Origin: an uncultured Arthrobacter sp.
GTDB taxonomy: Bacteria; Actinomycetota; Actinomycetes; Actinomycetales; Micrococcaceae
Direction: 5' to 3'
Length of the DNA: 64,000 nucleotides
Assembly: GCF_902805515.1 (NCBI RefSeq)
Contig: NZ_CADCTE010000156.1
Span: forward strand, 1 to 64,000
Part shown: positions 33,704 through 42,996 of the stretch, one piece after another
How positions within the stretch are numbered: the stretch's first letter is position 1
Layout of the letters: the number at the start of each line of letters is the position of its first letter
Notes under the pieces: model-generated
Told to the model about the DNA's origin: nothing
Database searches by the model: none
The model's input: the letters and a program-made list of their open reading frames with translations, nothing else
Position numbers and translations under genes: made by a program

Positions 33704-33744
33704 GAAGGCCGCTGCCGGATCGATGGATCCCGGCAGCGGCCTTC
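33704..33744 (-). terminator. Terminator after the coiled-coil gene
   Basis: GAAGGCCGCTGCCGG and CCGGCAGCGGCCTTC form a 15-bp perfect stem with an 11-nt loop, about 25 nt past the coiled-coil gene stop (33768). The remaining gap 33525-33703 holds the dehydrogenase promoter region and no gene. Confidence 0.82.
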
Positions 33745-33767: not shown

Positions 33768-36101
33768 TCAGGCCACGCAGCCGCCGAGAGCGATCTGGTT
33801 GTCGATCGAGGCGATCTTGGTCTGGACGGCTCCCAGCTGGTCCTGCAGCGAGTTGACAGTGGCCTTCTGCGCGGTGATGGCCGCCTTGTTCGTCTTCTTC
33901 TGCGCCTCAAGGTTCCGAAGGACCGCGTGCGCGTCGGTGACCTGCTTGTCGAGGGTGGTCAGCTGGCCCTGGAGGGTCTTCAGTGCCGCTTCCGCAGCGC
34001 TGATTTCCCCGTTGAGGCTGTTGAGCTGGGTCAGGAGGGGCGCCACCTGGTTCTGCAGCCCGAGGACCGCGGCCTCCTTGGCAGCGATCTGCCCGTTCAG
34101 CCCCGCGAGATCCGCCACCAGCTTGTCCATGTCGGCGTTCAGCTTGGAGATTTCGACCCGCTTGGCAGCGGCCGCCGCGGCCGCGCTGTCTGCGGCTGCC
34201 TGCAGTGCCGGCAGCCGGTCCTGCAGCCCGGTCAACTCCGCGTTCTTGGCGTCGACGGCCGCATCCGCAGCTGCGAGCGCGTCCTCGGCGTCCGCAAGGT
34301 CACCCTGCAATTCCTCGAGCACCGCCCGCTCGGCGGAGATGGCCGCCTCGGCCTCTGCGGCTCCCTCGGTGAGTGCCGGCAGGCCGGCTTCGAGGTCGGC
34401 GACAACCTTCTCCTGGGCGCTCACTGCACCGGCGGCTGCGGCTGCGGCGTCCTCGAGGGCCGGCAGCTTCCCCTGCAGGGCAGCCAGTTCTTCCTGCTTG
34501 GCGGCCACTGCGGCGTTGGCCTCGGTCAGTGCCGTTCCAAGGGCGGGCAGCTGGCCCTGGAGGCCCAGGATCTCTGCCTCCTTGGTGGCAACCGCGCCCT
34601 GGGCCGTTGCCAGCGCGGCCTGCAGCGGGGCTGCCTGACGCTGCAGGGTGCTGCTTTCGCCCTGCTTGGCGACCAGTTGAGCGTTGAGTGTGTTGACCTG
34701 GTTCTGCAGCGTGGAGAGGTCGCCCGAAAGGCCAGCAATGATGCCGGACTTCTGGGTGATTTGGTTCGTCACGGAAGTGAGCTCGGCCTGCTTGGTGTTA
34801 CGCAGGGCGATCAGTTCGTCCTTCTTCTTGCCATTGCCCTTGATGGCTTCGATCTCGGCGTTGAGGGCGTTGATCTCGTCCTGCAGCTGGGTCTGCCGGG
34901 CCTGCAGCGCCGTCCGCTCGGACTGAGCCGCAGTGAGCTGGGTCTGCTTCGTCGAGATCGTGGTACCGAGAGCCGCAATGTCGTTCTGAAGGGTGGTGAT
35001 CTGCCCGTTGATCAAGGTGGTGGCTGCGGCATTTGCGGCGACGGCGTCGGCGGCCTTCGCTGCGTCGGCCTTCAGGGCCGGGAGCTGATTCTGGGCGGCT
35101 GCAATCTCAGTGTTCTTCGCCGTGACGGCGTCCGCAGCCTTCTTGGCATCGGCCTGAAGTACGCCAAGTTCGCCCTGTGCGGTGGTGATCTCGGCGTTCT
35201 TCACGGTGACGGCGTCCGCGGCCTTGTTGGCGTCGGCCTGGCGCGTGGCGAGGGCGGTCTTCGCCTCCTCGATCCGGACCGCCTGGGCATCGAGCTCGGC
35301 CTGCGCGGCGATGCCGGAGTCGACGAGGCGCTGAAGCTCGGCCTCGGACTCGAAGACGGCCTGCTCCGCGGCGGTCACCGCGGCAGCGGCGTCCTGCGCA
35401 GTCGTCGTCAGCGAAACAAGTGCTGTCTCGGCGGCGGCGATCGCCTCGATCTGCGCGGCGAGGGCACCTGAGGCGTTGGCGGCCGCTGCGTCAAGCAGGG
35501 CCAGCTCCCCGGTGGCGGTGTTCAGCACTTCCTGGTGGGCCGCCAGGTTCGCGTCCACGTCCGCCGCCTGCTTCTTCAGGCTCTCCGAGTCGGCCTGCGC
35601 GGCGGTCAGCTGCTCTTGAAGGGGCGCGAGTGCGGCAGCCGTATCCGCCTGCCGCACCTTGAGGTCGGCCAGCGCCTTCGTAGCTTCCTCGATCGACGTG
35701 GCCACGCTCGCCTGGTCCGCAGTCAGGGCTGCGAGTTCCGCGGTGGCGGCCTTCTCGTCGATGGCCAACTGCGCGGCCTCGGCGTCGAGGGCGGCGATTG
35801 CCTTCTCCGTGTCGGCGATCTGGGTGTTGAGGGTGGCAGCGGACGTCTGGAGCGCGGTCCGCTCGGCCTGCAGTTTGGAAATCTGCTCCGCGTTCTTCTT
35901 GGCGGCGGCCCGGAGCAGGTTTTCCTGCACGCCTCCGCGGTGCGCCGTCTGGTTGACCACCCCGTTGCAGATGCCCGACGTCGGGCCGGTCGTCGCCGAG
36001 GCCTGCGGGGCGAACACCAGCATGCTTGTCAGGATGCCGGGCAGGATCACTGCGCTTGCAACACGGCGGGTAAGGACGGATGTCGCGTGCGAGTCGCGCA
36101 T
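33768..36101 (-). CDS. Giant secreted coiled-coil protein with 28-residue repeats
   Basis: 777 residues. A signal peptide (about 1-38, ending AQAS-like with APQASATTG) is followed by a mature chain that is almost entirely Ala/Leu/Gln/Glu coiled-coil. The sequence is built of 28-residue (four heptad) units, e.g. the consecutive lines opening LPALG, LPALE, LPALT, LADAE, LPALQ, MDKLV and VAPLL. The only cysteines are near the mature N-terminus (SGICNGV) and in the last residues (GGCVA). No catalytic or sorting motif is seen. Likely a long extracellular or periplasmic rod. TCAGGAG precedes the ATG. Confidence 0.72.
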   Translation of the reverse strand: MRDSHATSVLTRRVASAVILPGILTSMLVFAPQASATTGPTSGICNGVVNQTAHRGGVQENLLRAAAKKNAEQISKLQAERTALQTSAATLNTQIADTEKAIAALDAEAAQLAIDEKAATAELAALTADQASVATSIEEATKALADLKVRQADTAAALAPLQEQLTAAQADSESLKKQAADVDANLAAHQEVLNTATGELALLDAAAANASGALAAQIEAIAAAETALVSLTTTAQDAAAAVTAAEQAVFESEAELQRLVDSGIAAQAELDAQAVRIEEAKTALATRQADANKAADAVTVKNAEITTAQGELGVLQADAKKAADAVTAKNTEIAAAQNQLPALKADAAKAADAVAANAAATTLINGQITTLQNDIAALGTTISTKQTQLTAAQSERTALQARQTQLQDEINALNAEIEAIKGNGKKKDELIALRNTKQAELTSVTNQITQKSGIIAGLSGDLSTLQNQVNTLNAQLVAKQGESSTLQRQAAPLQAALATAQGAVATKEAEILGLQGQLPALGTALTEANAAVAAKQEELAALQGKLPALEDAAAAAAGAVSAQEKVVADLEAGLPALTEGAAEAEAAISAERAVLEELQGDLADAEDALAAADAAVDAKNAELTGLQDRLPALQAAADSAAAAAAAKRVEISKLNADMDKLVADLAGLNGQIAAKEAAVLGLQNQVAPLLTQLNSLNGEISAAEAALKTLQGQLTTLDKQVTDAHAVLRNLEAQKKTNKAAITAQKATVNSLQDQLGAVQTKIASIDNQIALGGCVA
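33792..34718 (-). repeat. 11 tandem 28-residue coiled-coil units
   Basis: The last third of the protein splits into units of exactly 28 residues with consensus L-P-A-L near the start and LQGQ or LQ near the end. Count and register were checked by hand for units opening LSTLQ, AAPLQ, LPALG, LPALE, LPALT, LADAE, LPALQ, MDKLV, VAPLL, LTTLD and ITAQK. The final unit is followed by IALGGCVA and the stop. No long exact DNA repeats occur here. Confidence 0.75.
35020..35270 (-). repeat. Three near-identical 84-bp units in the coiled-coil gene
   Basis: Encodes successive 28-residue units beginning ADANKAADAV, ADAKKAADAV and ADAAKAADAV. The DNA is more alike here than elsewhere in the gene, pointing to recent duplication. 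Confidence 0.65.
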
Positions 36102-36321
36102 GATTACTCCTGAGACCGAAAAAGATGATGTAGCTGCCTCAAGGAATCTATGGACATTGGTTGCGTCAGGACACAGTAACCACTACTCGAAAACCGTTTG
36201 GACTACTTGGTCAGCGGGCGCTGAACTACCTGCTGACCCATCGCCGGTCGGGGCAGCGGCATCGTCGGGGTGCCGGGCCGGTGGACACCGGCGTGCCGGC
36301 AGGCGGCCGCCGACCCGGGCG

Positions 36322-37758: not shown

Positions 37759-40335
37759 TCACCCCGGCCGAACGGCGTCCATCCCCTGGCGGATGGACGC
37801 CGTTTCCGTCGTCGGGGCCTTGAGAGGCTGCCGTGCCCGGCGGGCCCTTAGACGACCGGCGACGCCGGCGATGCGCTGCGTCAGCGCCCAGTACGCCACG
37901 CCGGCCACCAAGGAGGCGCCCACTGCGAGTGCCGGGCTGAAGGGTTCAAGCAGGGGAAAGACCAGCCAGTGGGTCAGGTAGGCGTACAGCGAGGAACTGG
38001 CGAGGACCCCGACCGGCCGGTGGAGCTTCCGCGGCAGCGGGATGGCAGGAAGCCAGGTCAGCAGCAGGAGCCCTCCGAGCAGGGTCGCTTCCCGGGCCGC
38101 GTCGTCGAAGAAGCCGGGCACGCTCAGCGCCGCAATGGCCGTCACCACCGACCGCTGGAGGACGGTCCGGGACCGGGCCATCAGCCAGCCCAGGCCAACG
38201 AGCCAGAGCACGGGTGCGGTGTGCGGCACGCTGATGTGCGGGATGTCGTAGCGGCCCAGCATGCCCAGTGCTGTGAGGGCGAGCGGGAAGACAAACGGTG
38301 CGCCCCGCTCGGCCCGGTCCACCCACGGCACCGCGAGCAGCGCCAGCAGGAAGACCAGGACATACACGAGCACTTCGACGAACCAGAACTGCCACTCCGC
38401 GGTCACATGCCGGGGCCCGATCAGGGAATTCAGGAGCACGATGTTCGCCAGGGAGTACCGGTCGGTCACCAGGTAGGCGAAGGCGATAAAGGCCACGCTG
38501 GGCACCACGATCCGTCCGAGGCTCCGTAGCTGGCGCCGCAGGCGGGCGACCCGCACCCCCGCGAGCTGGAACCGGGCGAAGTTGTAGCCTGCCACGGCCA
38601 TCAGTACATGGGCGGTTCCCGGCCACGTGAACAGGCCCACGTGGGTGCTGATGATGAAGATGATGGCAACGGCCCGCAGGACGATGCTCGTCTCGAGCGG
38701 GGCGAGGAAACGCCGCGCCGGCCGTGCCTTCCGGGCCGGCCGGGCGAGGTCCCCGACCCTCATCAGGTGCCAGTCGGCAGGGAGGGCTCCAAGAACCTTT
38801 TCGAGCCGGACTGACAGCGCCACGTAGGACAACGAATCCCCGCCGAGGGAGACAAAGGTGTCCTCGTCCCGGACGGCGCCGCACTCAAGGTGCTCCGCGT
38901 AGATCCTCCGAAGGTCCTCCGGCCCGTCTCCGGCTGGGGCCTCCTCCGCTACCGCCCTGACCGGTGCCGCCGCCAGGGCGAGCACGGCCGGATAGTCGGG
39001 CTTGCCGCTGGACAGGCGCGGGAGCTGGTCGACGCCGTGGACCTCGACGGCGGCCCGGGGCAGTCCCAGCCGCTGGGCGAGGACCTTGCCGAGCAGCCGC
39101 GCATCAATTCCGCCCTCGACCGCGACCACGAGCCGTTCGTCGGTTCCGGCACTGAAGGCGCGCACGCCGAGGCCGTCGAGAATAAGTTCGACCTGGCCGA
39201 GGTCGACGCGCAGCCCGACGATCTTGAGGAACCTGCTGCGCCTCCCCACCACCTCGTACAGGCCGTTGGGGTGCCGTCGCGCCAGGTCCCCGGTGCGCAG
39301 CTCCTGAACGGTCCGGCCCAGTGCCAGGTCGGCCGGCACCTCGGCGTAGCCAAGCATGACGTTCGGTCCGGTGTACACGAGTTCGCCGTCGTCGAGCCCG
39401 GGCACCGGGTCGATGCGGAAGGCTCCGCCCGGCACCGCGATGCCGATGGTGCCCGGGTGCGCGGCCGCCAGGTCCGGGGGCAGGTAGGCCATCCGGGCGG
39501 TAGCCTCCGTGGCGCCGTACATGACGAACAGGTCCCAGCCGCGCTCAGCGCCCAGCGCGGCGTACCGGCGCACCTGCTCGGGCGCGAGCCGCCCCCCGGC
39601 CTGGGTGATGTACCGCAGGGAAGGAAGCTCAAGGTCGGCGAAGCCCACCCGTTCAAGGAGTTCGAAGGTGTAGGGCACGGCGGCGAAGGAGCTTACCCCG
39701 TGGGCGCGGACCTGCTCCCAGAAGCAGGGGTCGACGACGGACAGGTCGGTGAGCACGAGGCCCGCCCCCTGCAGCAGGTGGCTGTTGATCACCGACAGTC
39801 CGTAGCAGTAGGACAGGGGAAGCGTCGTCGCGGCACGGTCCTCGGGCCCGATCGCCAGGTACTCGGCGATGGACTCGGCGTTGGACTGGAGGTTCTCGTG
39901 GGAGAGCCTCACCAGTTTTGGGGAACCGGTTGAGCCGGAGGTGCTGACCAGCAGGGCAAGCTCGGGGTGCAGTTCGTGCGCGGTGCCGGGGCGCCGCTCC
40001 TCGAAGGAGGGAAAACCGCCGGAGCGCAGGACGACGTCGGGGTCGTACGCCGCCACGATGGAGTCAAGGGCCGCCGGCTTGTCGGCTGGAACGAGGATGA
40101 GGGGATGGCCGGACGAGAGCGCCGCGAGGTAGGCGATGAGCGAATCGAGATCGTTGGCGGCCGCGAGCGCCACCAACCGCCGCTGGGTTCCCAGGCGGGC
40201 AGCGAAGGCCTCGACGCGGCCGGCCAGTTCACGGTAGCTGAGGGTCGAACCGTCGATCAGCACAGCCGGGCGGTCCCCGTGGTGGGCGAGATCGGCGGCG
40301 AAGGAGGCACGCGTGAGGTTCAAGTGCGAGGTCAC
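37759..40335 (-). CDS. Adenylation - carrier - acyltransferase fusion protein
   Basis: 858 residues. About 1-465: AMP-binding (adenylate-forming) domain with STSGSTGSPKLV (A3 loop), YGATEATARM, GELVYTGPNVMLGYA and a TGDLARRHPNGL motif. About 480-550: acyl carrier domain with the phosphopantetheine serine in LGGDSLSYVAL. About 570-858: ten-or-so-helix acyltransferase-3-like membrane domain. One chain would therefore activate an acid, hold it as a thioester and hand it to an envelope acceptor, much as the separate Dlt proteins do for D-alanine. Substrate and acceptor are unknown. GTG 40335 is preceded by AAGGTTAC. An IdeR-like half-site lies just upstream. Confidence 0.8.
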   Translation of the reverse strand: MTSHLNLTRASFAADLAHHGDRPAVLIDGSTLSYRELAGRVEAFAARLGTQRRLVALAAANDLDSLIAYLAALSSGHPLILVPADKPAALDSIVAAYDPDVVLRSGGFPSFEERRPGTAHELHPELALLVSTSGSTGSPKLVRLSHENLQSNAESIAEYLAIGPEDRAATTLPLSYCYGLSVINSHLLQGAGLVLTDLSVVDPCFWEQVRAHGVSSFAAVPYTFELLERVGFADLELPSLRYITQAGGRLAPEQVRRYAALGAERGWDLFVMYGATEATARMAYLPPDLAAAHPGTIGIAVPGGAFRIDPVPGLDDGELVYTGPNVMLGYAEVPADLALGRTVQELRTGDLARRHPNGLYEVVGRRSRFLKIVGLRVDLGQVELILDGLGVRAFSAGTDERLVVAVEGGIDARLLGKVLAQRLGLPRAAVEVHGVDQLPRLSSGKPDYPAVLALAAAPVRAVAEEAPAGDGPEDLRRIYAEHLECGAVRDEDTFVSLGGDSLSYVALSVRLEKVLGALPADWHLMRVGDLARPARKARPARRFLAPLETSIVLRAVAIIFIISTHVGLFTWPGTAHVLMAVAGYNFARFQLAGVRVARLRRQLRSLGRIVVPSVAFIAFAYLVTDRYSLANIVLLNSLIGPRHVTAEWQFWFVEVLVYVLVFLLALLAVPWVDRAERGAPFVFPLALTALGMLGRYDIPHISVPHTAPVLWLVGLGWLMARSRTVLQRSVVTAIAALSVPGFFDDAAREATLLGGLLLLTWLPAIPLPRKLHRPVGVLASSSLYAYLTHWLVFPLLEPFSPALAVGASLVAGVAYWALTQRIAGVAGRLRARRARQPLKAPTTETASIRQGMDAVRPG
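37771..37804 (+). terminator. Terminator inside the 3' coding end of the convergent gene
   Basis: AACGGCGTCCATC (37771-37783) and GATGGACGCCGTT (37792-37804) form a 13-bp perfect stem with an 8-nt loop, followed by TTCC. It follows the DUF1684 stop (37755), yet lies within the last 15 codons of the fusion gene on the other strand (stop at 37759). Confidence 0.7.
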
Positions 40336-41137: not shown

Positions 41138-42133
41138 CTAGGACTGGCACCCGATTCCGTCGCCGTCCCGGTCGAACGAGGCGTCCCACCCCGGGTCCGC
41201 CGGGGTGATCGGCGCGGCGCCGGCCGCCTCGACGTCCGAGCAGCTCCCGTAGGTCACCTCCCCCGTTGGCGGCATGCTCTCCTGTCCACCGGGTCCGCCG
41301 GAAGGCGGGGTTTTCCCGGGTGTGCCGGCCGGGGCGCCGGCGGGCGGAGCGGTGGTTGCATCGGGAAGCGGCTGGCCCGGGCAGGACCGAAGGATCCGCT
41401 CGATCGCGCCTCGTTCGGCGGCCGTCACCCATAGGCGGTACTTGAGCTTGACCGCCGTCTGCCGGGCCACGTAGTCGCACCGGAACGATGCGTTCGGCGG
41501 CAGCCACGTCGCGGCATCGGCGTCGCCCTTCTGCCGGTTGGCCGGCCCGTCGACGGCGAGGAGGTTCAGCGGGTCGTTGGCGAAGCGCAGCCGGTCCTGG
41601 TCCGAAAGCTGCTGGGCGCCCGTCTCCCAGGCATTGCCCAGCGCCACGACGTGATCGATGTCGACAAGGGCATCCCCACCCTTGACGAACGATATGGTCG
41701 CCGCCGTGTAGGGGTCCTTCAAGACACCGGCCTGCACCACGCAGTTCCGGGTGCGGGGCTTGAAGGCTTCCTCCGAGAGATCCTTGGCAAGGATGTCGTT
41801 GCGGGTATCGCAGCCGTTCCGATCGACGTCGGCCCAGGCCGGCCCAAACTTCTCCCGGTCGTAGCCGGTCTTCGGTGCCCGCCCCTTGACGGCGAGCGCC
41901 TCGAGGCCGGCGAGCGCCGTCCCGGCCGGCGGCGCCGGGGCGGCCGGCATTGACGCGTCCGGGACAGGATCTGCGGGTCCGTCCGGCCCCTTGACCGTCG
42001 GGGTGGCTGTCGGGGCGGGTGCCACCGACGGCACGGGCGCCGGGGCGCCCTGCAGTGCGGGCGAGCAGCCGACGACGCCGGCCGCGAGGACGGCCCCAAG
42101 CAGGACGGCGGCTCTCGTAGTGCGAAGGTGCAT
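41138..42133 (-). CDS. Lipoprotein nuclease: DUF1524 (HNH-like) plus Excalibur domain
   Basis: 331 residues. Signal peptide with lipobox (VVGC, cysteine about 20), then a Pro/Ala linker. A DUF1524-type HNH nuclease domain (about 85-265) follows, with VDIDHVVALGNAWETGA and DPLNLLAVDGPANRQKGDAD. A second Pro/Gly linker leads to a C-terminal Excalibur domain (GSCSDVEAAGA ... FDRDGDGIGCQ) with DxDxDG-like calcium loop. Likely a surface-anchored, calcium-dependent nuclease. ATG 42133 is chosen because the signal peptide follows at once. Confidence 0.83.
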   Translation of the reverse strand: MHLRTTRAAVLLGAVLAAGVVGCSPALQGAPAPVPSVAPAPTATPTVKGPDGPADPVPDASMPAAPAPPAGTALAGLEALAVKGRAPKTGYDREKFGPAWADVDRNGCDTRNDILAKDLSEEAFKPRTRNCVVQAGVLKDPYTAATISFVKGGDALVDIDHVVALGNAWETGAQQLSDQDRLRFANDPLNLLAVDGPANRQKGDADAATWLPPNASFRCDYVARQTAVKLKYRLWVTAAERGAIERILRSCPGQPLPDATTAPPAGAPAGTPGKTPPSGGPGGQESMPPTGEVTYGSCSDVEAAGAAPITPADPGWDASFDRDGDGIGCQS

Positions 42134-42288
42134 GGTTCCCAGGGGTGTGATGGTGCAAATTTGCTGAGCCTCGACCCTACCGCCCGGGCACGCCCGCTTA
42201 TCGGCGGCCCGCCGTACGGTGAACGGTTTGGTCTCGACACCACCGGAAGGGAGCGGACTCCGGGCGGGGAGTGCGGCACAATAGCAGC

Positions 42289-42996
42289 ATGTGCGGACGT
42301 TTCGTGATCGCGGGAAACAAGGCGGCAATGCTGGATGCGTTCAACGTGGACGAGTCGTTCGAGGACGAAATGAACCCGTCCTGGAATGTGGCCCCGATGA
42401 CAGGGATCCCCTTCGTTTCGGAACGACTCAGCGATGGCACCCTGACCCGCCGGCTCGACATCGCCCGCTGGGGCCTTGTCCCAGTGTGGGCGAAGGACCC
42501 CAAGATCGGCTCCCGGATGATCAATGCCCGCGCCGAATCGGTCCTCGACAAGCCCTCCTTCCGCACGGCGGCCGCCAAACGCCGGGCCCTGGTCCCCGCG
42601 AACGGCTACTACGAATGGCAGAAGAATCCCGACGGAACGAAGACTCCCACCTACCTCCACCCCGAGCGGGAGGACGACCTGATCGCCTTCGCCGCCCTGT
42701 ACGAGTTCTGGCCGGATCCGGAGAAGGCGGATGGAGATCCAGAGAAGTGGCTGACCACGGCGACCATCCTGACCACGGACGCCACCGACAGCCTCGGGCA
42801 CATCCACGACCGCTCCCCGCTGATCGTCCCGAAGGACCTCCAGGCGGACTGGCTCGATCCGGCGGTGACCTCAAAGAAGGACGTACTGGAACTGATCGAC
42901 GCGATCCCTGAACCCGTCCTCGTCCCCCGCGTGGTGGGCAAGGAGGTGGGATCCGTCCGCAATGACGGGCCGCACCTCATCGAACCGGCCGAATAG
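42289..42996 (+). CDS. SRAP-family protein (YedK/HMCES-like)
   Basis: 235 residues. C2 (after Met removal the N-terminal nucleophile), ARAESV, and NGYYEWQK motifs define the SRAP family, which traps abasic sites in single-stranded DNA as a stable thiazolidine crosslink. H-containing HDRSPLIVPKDL is also present. CACAAT lies 6 nt before the ATG, so the mRNA is probably leaderless. The 3' end overlaps the convergent L,D-transpeptidase gene by 126 bp. Confidence 0.88.
   Translation: MCGRFVIAGNKAAMLDAFNVDESFEDEMNPSWNVAPMTGIPFVSERLSDGTLTRRLDIARWGLVPVWAKDPKIGSRMINARAESVLDKPSFRTAAAKRRALVPANGYYEWQKNPDGTKTPTYLHPEREDDLIAFAALYEFWPDPEKADGDPEKWLTTATILTTDATDSLGHIHDRSPLIVPKDLQADWLDPAVTSKKDVLELIDAIPEPVLVPRVVGKEVGSVRNDGPHLIEPAE

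Follow-up and report, generated by a model that had tools for sequence, protein, structure and literature searches.

What does a secreted protein of 777 residues, nearly all of it coiled coil, build outside the cell? The question is raised by a gene in the window, the first 64,000 nucleotides of contig NZ_CADCTE010000156.1 from an uncultured Arthrobacter sp.; the source assembly (GCF_902805515.1) is incomplete, of Arthrobacter kind, with 207 contigs and 91% completeness. The initial annotation had suggested that the product could be a myosin-like rod that assembles side by side into a fibre. Our analysis most likely replaces this reading with a secreted hairpin rod. Taken as a whole, the evidence is very probably best explained by a head-less coiled coil that folds back on itself. 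No paper on this hairpin family was found in the literature, and an uncharacterised secreted family of soil actinobacteria is now named.

The features of the gene are collected in Table 1. The protein had been proposed to be secreted, and a signal peptide that reads as Sec-type, ending in ...APQASA near residue 36, supports this. The N-terminal cap behind it is among the most conserved regions of the family. AGGAG also precedes the start codon in most Arthrobacter homologues, and a scan for sigma-70 promoters returned none. The RNA hairpin downstream of the gene (−44.5 kcal/mol, z −6.4, by RNA fold) is probably a transcription terminator, although it lacks the long run of T that such sites usually have; a consensus scan for terminators, which requires a T run, did not have it among its listed sites. 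With such a strong hairpin after the stop codon, the gene is likely to be transcribed on its own. Among named organisms, the nearest relatives of the source genome are Arthrobacter sp. MSA 4-2 (90% identity) and A. crusticola (75%).

Table 1. Features of the gene and its predicted product; positions are those of the window.
Feature	Position	Strand	Basis
Gene, 777-aa secreted protein, predicted coiled-coil hairpin	33768..36101	(-)	ORF and translation; 43 complete homologues compared
Ribosome binding site AGGAG, 5' of ATG	36107..36111	(-)	sequence
Signal peptide, residues 1-36: RR and hydrophobic stretch	35994..36101	(-)	read from sequence; conserved in homologues
N-terminal cap, residues 37-59 (ICNGVVNQxAHRG), with invariant Cys45	35925..35993	(-)	family conservation
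N arm, residues 60-419, a = residues 4 mod 7, 28-residue period	34845..35924	(-)	register scan
Possible elbow, N arm, residues 264-267, beside conserved Gly263	35301..35312	(-)	helix break in model
Hinge loop, residues 420-424 (IKGNG)	34830..34844	(-)	length variation; register break; loop in both models
C arm, residues 425-776, a = residues 0 mod 7	33774..34829	(-)	model and register scans
Surface-conserved stretch near hinge, residues 452-500	34602..34748	(-)	conservation at outward-facing positions
Possible elbow, C arm, residues 571-584 (GLPALTEG)	34350..34391	(-)	model break, roughly opposite 264-267 across hinge
Codon of invariant Cys775, C-terminal cap (GGCVA)	33777..33779	(-)	43/43 homologues
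Strong RNA hairpin just 3' of stop codon, 41 nt	33704..33744	(-)	RNA fold

Hydrophobic residues repeat every 3.50 residues in continuous heptad registers, confirming the coiled coil that had been recognized by eye. A superimposed period of 28 residues, previously counted by hand, holds on computation: self-identity at lag 28 was 0.277, compared with a maximum of 0.169 in 200 shuffles, and harmonics were found at lags 56, 84 and 112. Against shuffles that preserve the heptad composition, lag 28 reached z-scores of 4.7 in the N arm and 5.2 in the C arm (attained by none of 2000 shuffles), and lags 7, 14, 21 and 35 were not raised. Since the signal is present in both arms, the period spans the whole rod and is not confined to the last third, to which it had first been assigned. 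The LPAL motif does recur, at residues 340, 518, 546, 574 and 630, the last four sites being spaced by multiples of 28. Leu, Ala and basic residues carry the period; in the core, Leu-rich heptads alternate with Ala-rich heptads, with Lys recurring at one of the d positions in the C arm.

Three units near 35.02-35.27 kb had been described as almost identical DNA. Their spacing is indeed exactly 84 nt, but they are only 64-82% alike, and therefore no recent tandem expansion took place. A tandem DNA array was rejected as an explanation, as Tandem Repeats Finder reported no 84-nt array.

What packs myosin rods side by side is an alternation of charge every 28 residues. The Fourier power at 28 residues was 0.0 for acidic residues and 2.5 for net charge, and hence the period found here is not the charge pattern on which the fibre had been predicated.

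For comparison we aligned 43 complete proteins, 38 of a long class, to which the present one belongs, and five of a short class. The N-arm heptad register is unbroken from residue 57 to mid-chain, and a second register extends from there to the end. A register scan located the sole break at residues 420-426, and the 43 homologues are alike with few exceptions. The break coincides with a loop rich in Gly, Asn and Pro (variants IKGNGK, GNGNGNGNGNG, TEFPPTSNSK and DSYPTTS), which differs by up to 8 residues between proteins and is the main length-variable spot of the family.

AlphaFold2 models were made of single chains, from 15 sequences for the full-length protein and from 20 for residues 340-505. 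This middle fragment was predicted as a two-helix hairpin with a 5-residue loop (pLDDT 97.6, pTM 0.79), all five models having a pLDDT of at least 96.8. Its closest good fold match is the SMC arm of Pyrococcus (5xg2; TM 0.88, 1.7 Å, 161 columns), followed by EmrA, dynein and the p85 iSH2 coil; PcsB and the RipA N-terminal domain matched weakly. In the full-length model (mean pLDDT 77.7, pTM 0.31, low confidence at the caps) long helices are broken at 264-267, 420-424 and 571-584, the N arm comprising helices 60-263 and 268-419. Here the fold matches were the SMC, MukB and Rad50 arms, then PrgA and, weakly, the Umb1 umbrella particle. A viral structure library yielded SMC- and Rad50-like coils only. 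Hairpin as the structure class is well supported by sequence and models together.

If the chain folds back at the loop, the position of the loop predicts which residues of the two arms face each other. We compared core residue size between N arm and C arm in each antiparallel register within reach, for every protein singly. The best register was the one predicted from the hinge in 30 of the 38 long proteins and lay on the 28-residue lattice in 37, counts that are not independent because the homologues are related. In the matched register, Leu-rich heptads lie opposite Leu-rich and Ala-rich opposite Ala-rich. For the five short-class proteins the best register was exact in one, displaced by −4 in one and by +3 in three, the latter being the shift expected from the 3-residue deletion of these proteins; although the 28-residue period is weaker in this class, the right register was still picked. 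The hinge-predicted register was not favoured by charge matching at the flanking positions e-e' and g-g'. Prediction and sequence matching indicate an antiparallel arm of the SMC type closed by a turn, which does not amount to membership of the SMC family.

The lengths of the arms are conserved almost to the residue. The rod segments C45-Q267, Q267-L406, L458-L574 and L574-C775 measure 222, 139, 116 and 201 residues in 35 of the 38 long proteins, and in the other three a single segment is off, by 4, 1 and 1. The hinge segment between them varies from 48 to 56 residues in the long class. In the short class the rod segments measure 194, 108 or 111, 88 and 173, so that each of the four is shorter by 28 residues (once by 28 or 31); 3 further residues are missing near the hinge in four of the five proteins. 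An even split of four lost units over four segments would arise at random with a chance of about 9%, making the balanced loss modest evidence by itself, and it represents one evolutionary split because the short class is one clade. With this reservation, 28 residues appears to be the unit by which rod length changed. The family offers a natural test case of paired helices that change length together, in 28-residue steps and in both arms at once.

Helix-disturbing sites are mirrored across the hinge, namely Pro160 and Pro688 (sum 848), and Gly263 (present in 77% of the homologues) and Pro575-Gly580 (Pro575 in 88%). Given six conserved prolines in the C arm, chance alone would bring about a mirror match to within one residue in about 5% of cases, and the match is therefore just supportive. 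The two arms of the model are broken at roughly facing sites, 264-267 and 571-584, which look like an SMC elbow, a likeness that we accept with reserve. The elbow is uncertain because AlphaFold2 favours fold-back on single chains and bent the stalks of UmbC1 and UmbC2 wrongly (PMC11062931). Surface conservation is highest at the open tip (residues 38-87 and 676-777) and at residues 452-500 near the hinge, which makes these likely contact sites; the latter stretch is a possible binding patch. The surface of the rod body is freely variable in sequence, its length being fixed.

In the predicted hairpin, the exported N-arm helix of ~360 residues would run out for ~53 nm (0.15 nm per residue), the chain would turn at the short loop near residue 422, and the C-arm helix would run back antiparallel on the N arm, perhaps elbowed as SMC arms are. 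The alternation of Leu-rich and Ala-rich core every 28 residues would be in step between the arms. The N- and C-terminal caps would meet at the open tip, where a disulfide between Cys45 and Cys775 would clasp the hairpin. A short-class hairpin would measure about 45 nm. The protein does contain only two cysteines, C45 and C775, one near each chain end as originally noted, and both are invariant and the sole cysteines of the mature chain in 43 of 43 homologues. A disulfide clasp is the simplest reading because the exported chain has just these two cysteines and always keeps them, and with the arms in the predicted antiparallel pairing they would share one tip. As the full-length model has a low pTM and low confidence at the caps, the cap contact and the disulfide are what we infer rather than what the model predicts.

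The fibre of parallel, myosin-like rods joined by end-to-end disulfides shares the 28-residue period with these data, and profiles of myosin, tropomyosin and lamin matched weakly, as they would any coiled coil. Like the present protein, myosin and tropomyosin combine a 28-residue or long-range period with a continuous heptad coil; unlike it, they are parallel dimers, without a mid-chain turn. Acidic and net charge lack the 28-residue period, the register is broken at the mid-chain loop, and both the antiparallel arm matching and the hairpin prediction speak against parallel, myosin-like rods. Antiparallel arms would, moreover, bring the two cysteines to the same tip, which makes end-to-end disulfides unlikely. 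We regard such a fibre as highly improbable; on a parallel in-register dimer too, the sequence and the single-chain AlphaFold2 model favour fold-back. A full-length antiparallel dimer is harder to tell from a hairpin. Two extended, opposed chains, each laying its N arm on the C arm of the partner and linked Cys45-Cys775' at each end, would form a rod of about 105 nm with the same arm pairing, balance of arm lengths and core-size register as the hairpin. A Gly/Asn/Pro loop that varies by up to 8 residues would, however, be odd midway along a straight rod, and for the single-chain fragment AlphaFold2 gave a tight hairpin at very high confidence. This dimer is, in our judgement, distinctly unlikely.

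A third possibility is compatible with the hairpin and concerns its role: the protein may, once secreted, act on a cell-wall enzyme as its partner or regulator, having lost the enzyme domain or never having had one. The extracellular hairpin shape, the weak fold matches of the fragment to PcsB and the RipA N-terminal domain, and the two-component genes that adjoin the gene in several genomes, fitting envelope-stress control, are in line with this. PcsB and RipA carry cell-wall hydrolase domains. Their N-terminal domains are likewise extracellular coiled coils, but the hairpin protein has no other domain (no match to CHAP or NlpC/P60 hydrolase domains in Pfam or NCBIfam), shows no sequence relation to the PcsB and RipA coils and is far longer, and no cell-wall enzyme was found among the identified neighbour genes in the window. 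A role as enzyme partner seems unlikely to us.

Long coiled-coil hairpins are best known inside the cell, as SMC-type arms, or as stalks bearing another domain; this family is exported and consists of almost nothing but the hairpin. As modelled, it resembles the arms of SMC, MukB and Rad50 in being an antiparallel, intramolecular hairpin of ~50 nm with the turn at one end, the termini at the other and a possible elbow. In contrast to these, it is secreted, has disulfide-capable ends and lacks ATPase heads and a folded hinge domain. Neither Pfam nor NCBIfam matched an AAA or ABC ATPase at the chain ends, and TIGR02168 scored 109.5 bits against a cut-off of 567, on the coil only. The likeness is limited to the fold and generic coiled-coil sequence.

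Two further fold matches are themselves secreted. Enterococcal PrgA (6z9l), a wall-anchored protein of Gram-positive bacteria, displays a protease domain and has a stalk some 40 nm long (PMC10588982). PrgA was the third fold match of our full-length model and is similar as a secreted Gram-positive stalk, but the hairpin protein shows no protease domain by Pfam; its chain and those of the homologues end in ...ALGGCVA or alike, with no C-terminal LPXTG, and TIGR04320 (PrgA-type surface proteins) scored 26.5 bits on the coil only, compared with a cut-off of 70. In the actinobacterial, secreted UmbC stalk (8w20), two coiled-coil segments of one chain converge (PMC11062931). This stalk is a weak fold match of the full-length model; the present protein is a stalk only, and a longer one, that lacks the ALF ring and the toxin domain and does not start in a clearly Tat-type manner. 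Neither ALF repeats nor a toxin domain at the C terminus were matched in Pfam or NCBIfam, the chain consisting of the rod and short caps.

Beyond generic coiled coil, Pfam, NCBIfam and PADLOC returned no named family. Matches to ATG16, Fez1, SMC, Mplasa_alph_rch, JetC, LmuB and others were set aside as generic, covering the coil only and mostly falling below the cut-off if a family has one. ATG16 and, narrowly, ADIP, Fez1 and DUF7491 exceed their own cut-offs; these are eukaryotic or unnamed coil models, and the matches are taken as compositional. PF19220 (Crescentin / intermediate filaments) scored 25.5 bits against a Pfam gathering score of 100. The PADLOC matches to the anti-phage proteins JetC and LmuB, of at most 45 bits, were likewise on the coil, and no anti-phage partner genes were identified beside the hairpin gene.

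The family is accessory and patchy in occurrence. Whole-genome searches found 12 full-length Arthrobacter relatives (this gene included) as well as shorter ones; a scan of genome contigs returned two Arthrobacter relatives only, the other relatives coming from the genome searches. With a profile of the N cap, members were detected in 32 of 298 Micrococcaceae genomes (8 of 32 genera) and, at the level of the order, in 11 of 396 genomes. A class-wide search gave no clear member outside Micrococcales, just three weak partial matches, and no relatives were found on plasmids, phages or viral contigs. Sequence identity within the family falls to about 40-60%. The 43 homologues share a signature of C-x-G-x-x-N-Q in the N cap, the C-cap Cys, two cysteines in the mature chain and fixed arm lengths. 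The short class forms a single clade with full support, and one genome (G007) holds both length classes. In another assembly (contig G010:C1), runs of N lie inside a short-class gene (L014 and L021) and a separate C-cap piece (L019) is found elsewhere on the same contig; the split gene is probably a mis-assembly at repeats.

The two classes may also exchange rods. In genome G019, a short-class gene sits at the locus that holds a long gene in G028 and G007. Between G019 and G028, DNA identity is 88% up to codon 70 and is then lost over the rod; it returns as a weak stretch of 65% at the rod end and as 81% beyond the gene. The G019 rod is in turn 81% identical in DNA to the short gene of G007. 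By this comparison, the rod has been replaced behind a retained upstream region, signal peptide and N cap, with a breakpoint near codon 70, which looks like cassette exchange by recombination. The exchanged gene lies at G019:C22, 8289-10277 (L061), with a short-class rod in place of the long-class rod of L066 and L060.

Because lengths are kept almost to the residue while the sequence drifted, rod length itself is probably the selected trait. A rod whose surface varies and whose length does not suggests a spacer or strut of fixed reach, and from this we infer an extracellular role: the hairpin would act in the cell envelope or on it as a stiff strut whose length is fixed, attached at the conserved end that carries the caps; the other conserved patch lies near the hinge. 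The most complete version of this idea is a secreted ruler of ~53 nm (45 nm in the short class): an SMC-arm-like hairpin, clasped by a disulfide and kept almost to the residue in length by selection, which would set a fixed spacing within the actinobacterial envelope or between cell and target and whose rods would be exchanged between bacteria by recombination. We offer this full picture tentatively, as a possible but rather doubtful reading.

A NarL/LuxR-type response regulator lies upstream of the hairpin gene in the same direction at several loci (L050, L051, L052, L060, L111, L123), often with a HisKA_3 histidine kinase beside it, both length classes being included; this linkage suggests regulated expression of the hairpin gene at these loci. 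In the window, no such regulator and kinase pair adjoins the gene. The other shared neighbours are confined to close relatives, which leaves the neighbourhood uninformative on function. One of them encodes an 858-aa protein (window 37759-40335, minus strand) that has an AMP-binding domain in its N-terminal part, while its C-terminal half contains many hydrophobic stretches and no Pfam match at the threshold used; in both of the nearest relatives, too, it lies close to the hairpin gene. Another protein encoded in the window (41138-42328, minus strand) combines a GmrSD_C (HNH nuclease-like) domain with a following Excalibur calcium-binding domain. At five loci of one genus (L057, L103, L105, L121 and L122), the hairpin gene is located near TadE/TadG-like pilus genes and the glmM/rpsI region, a position common to that genus.
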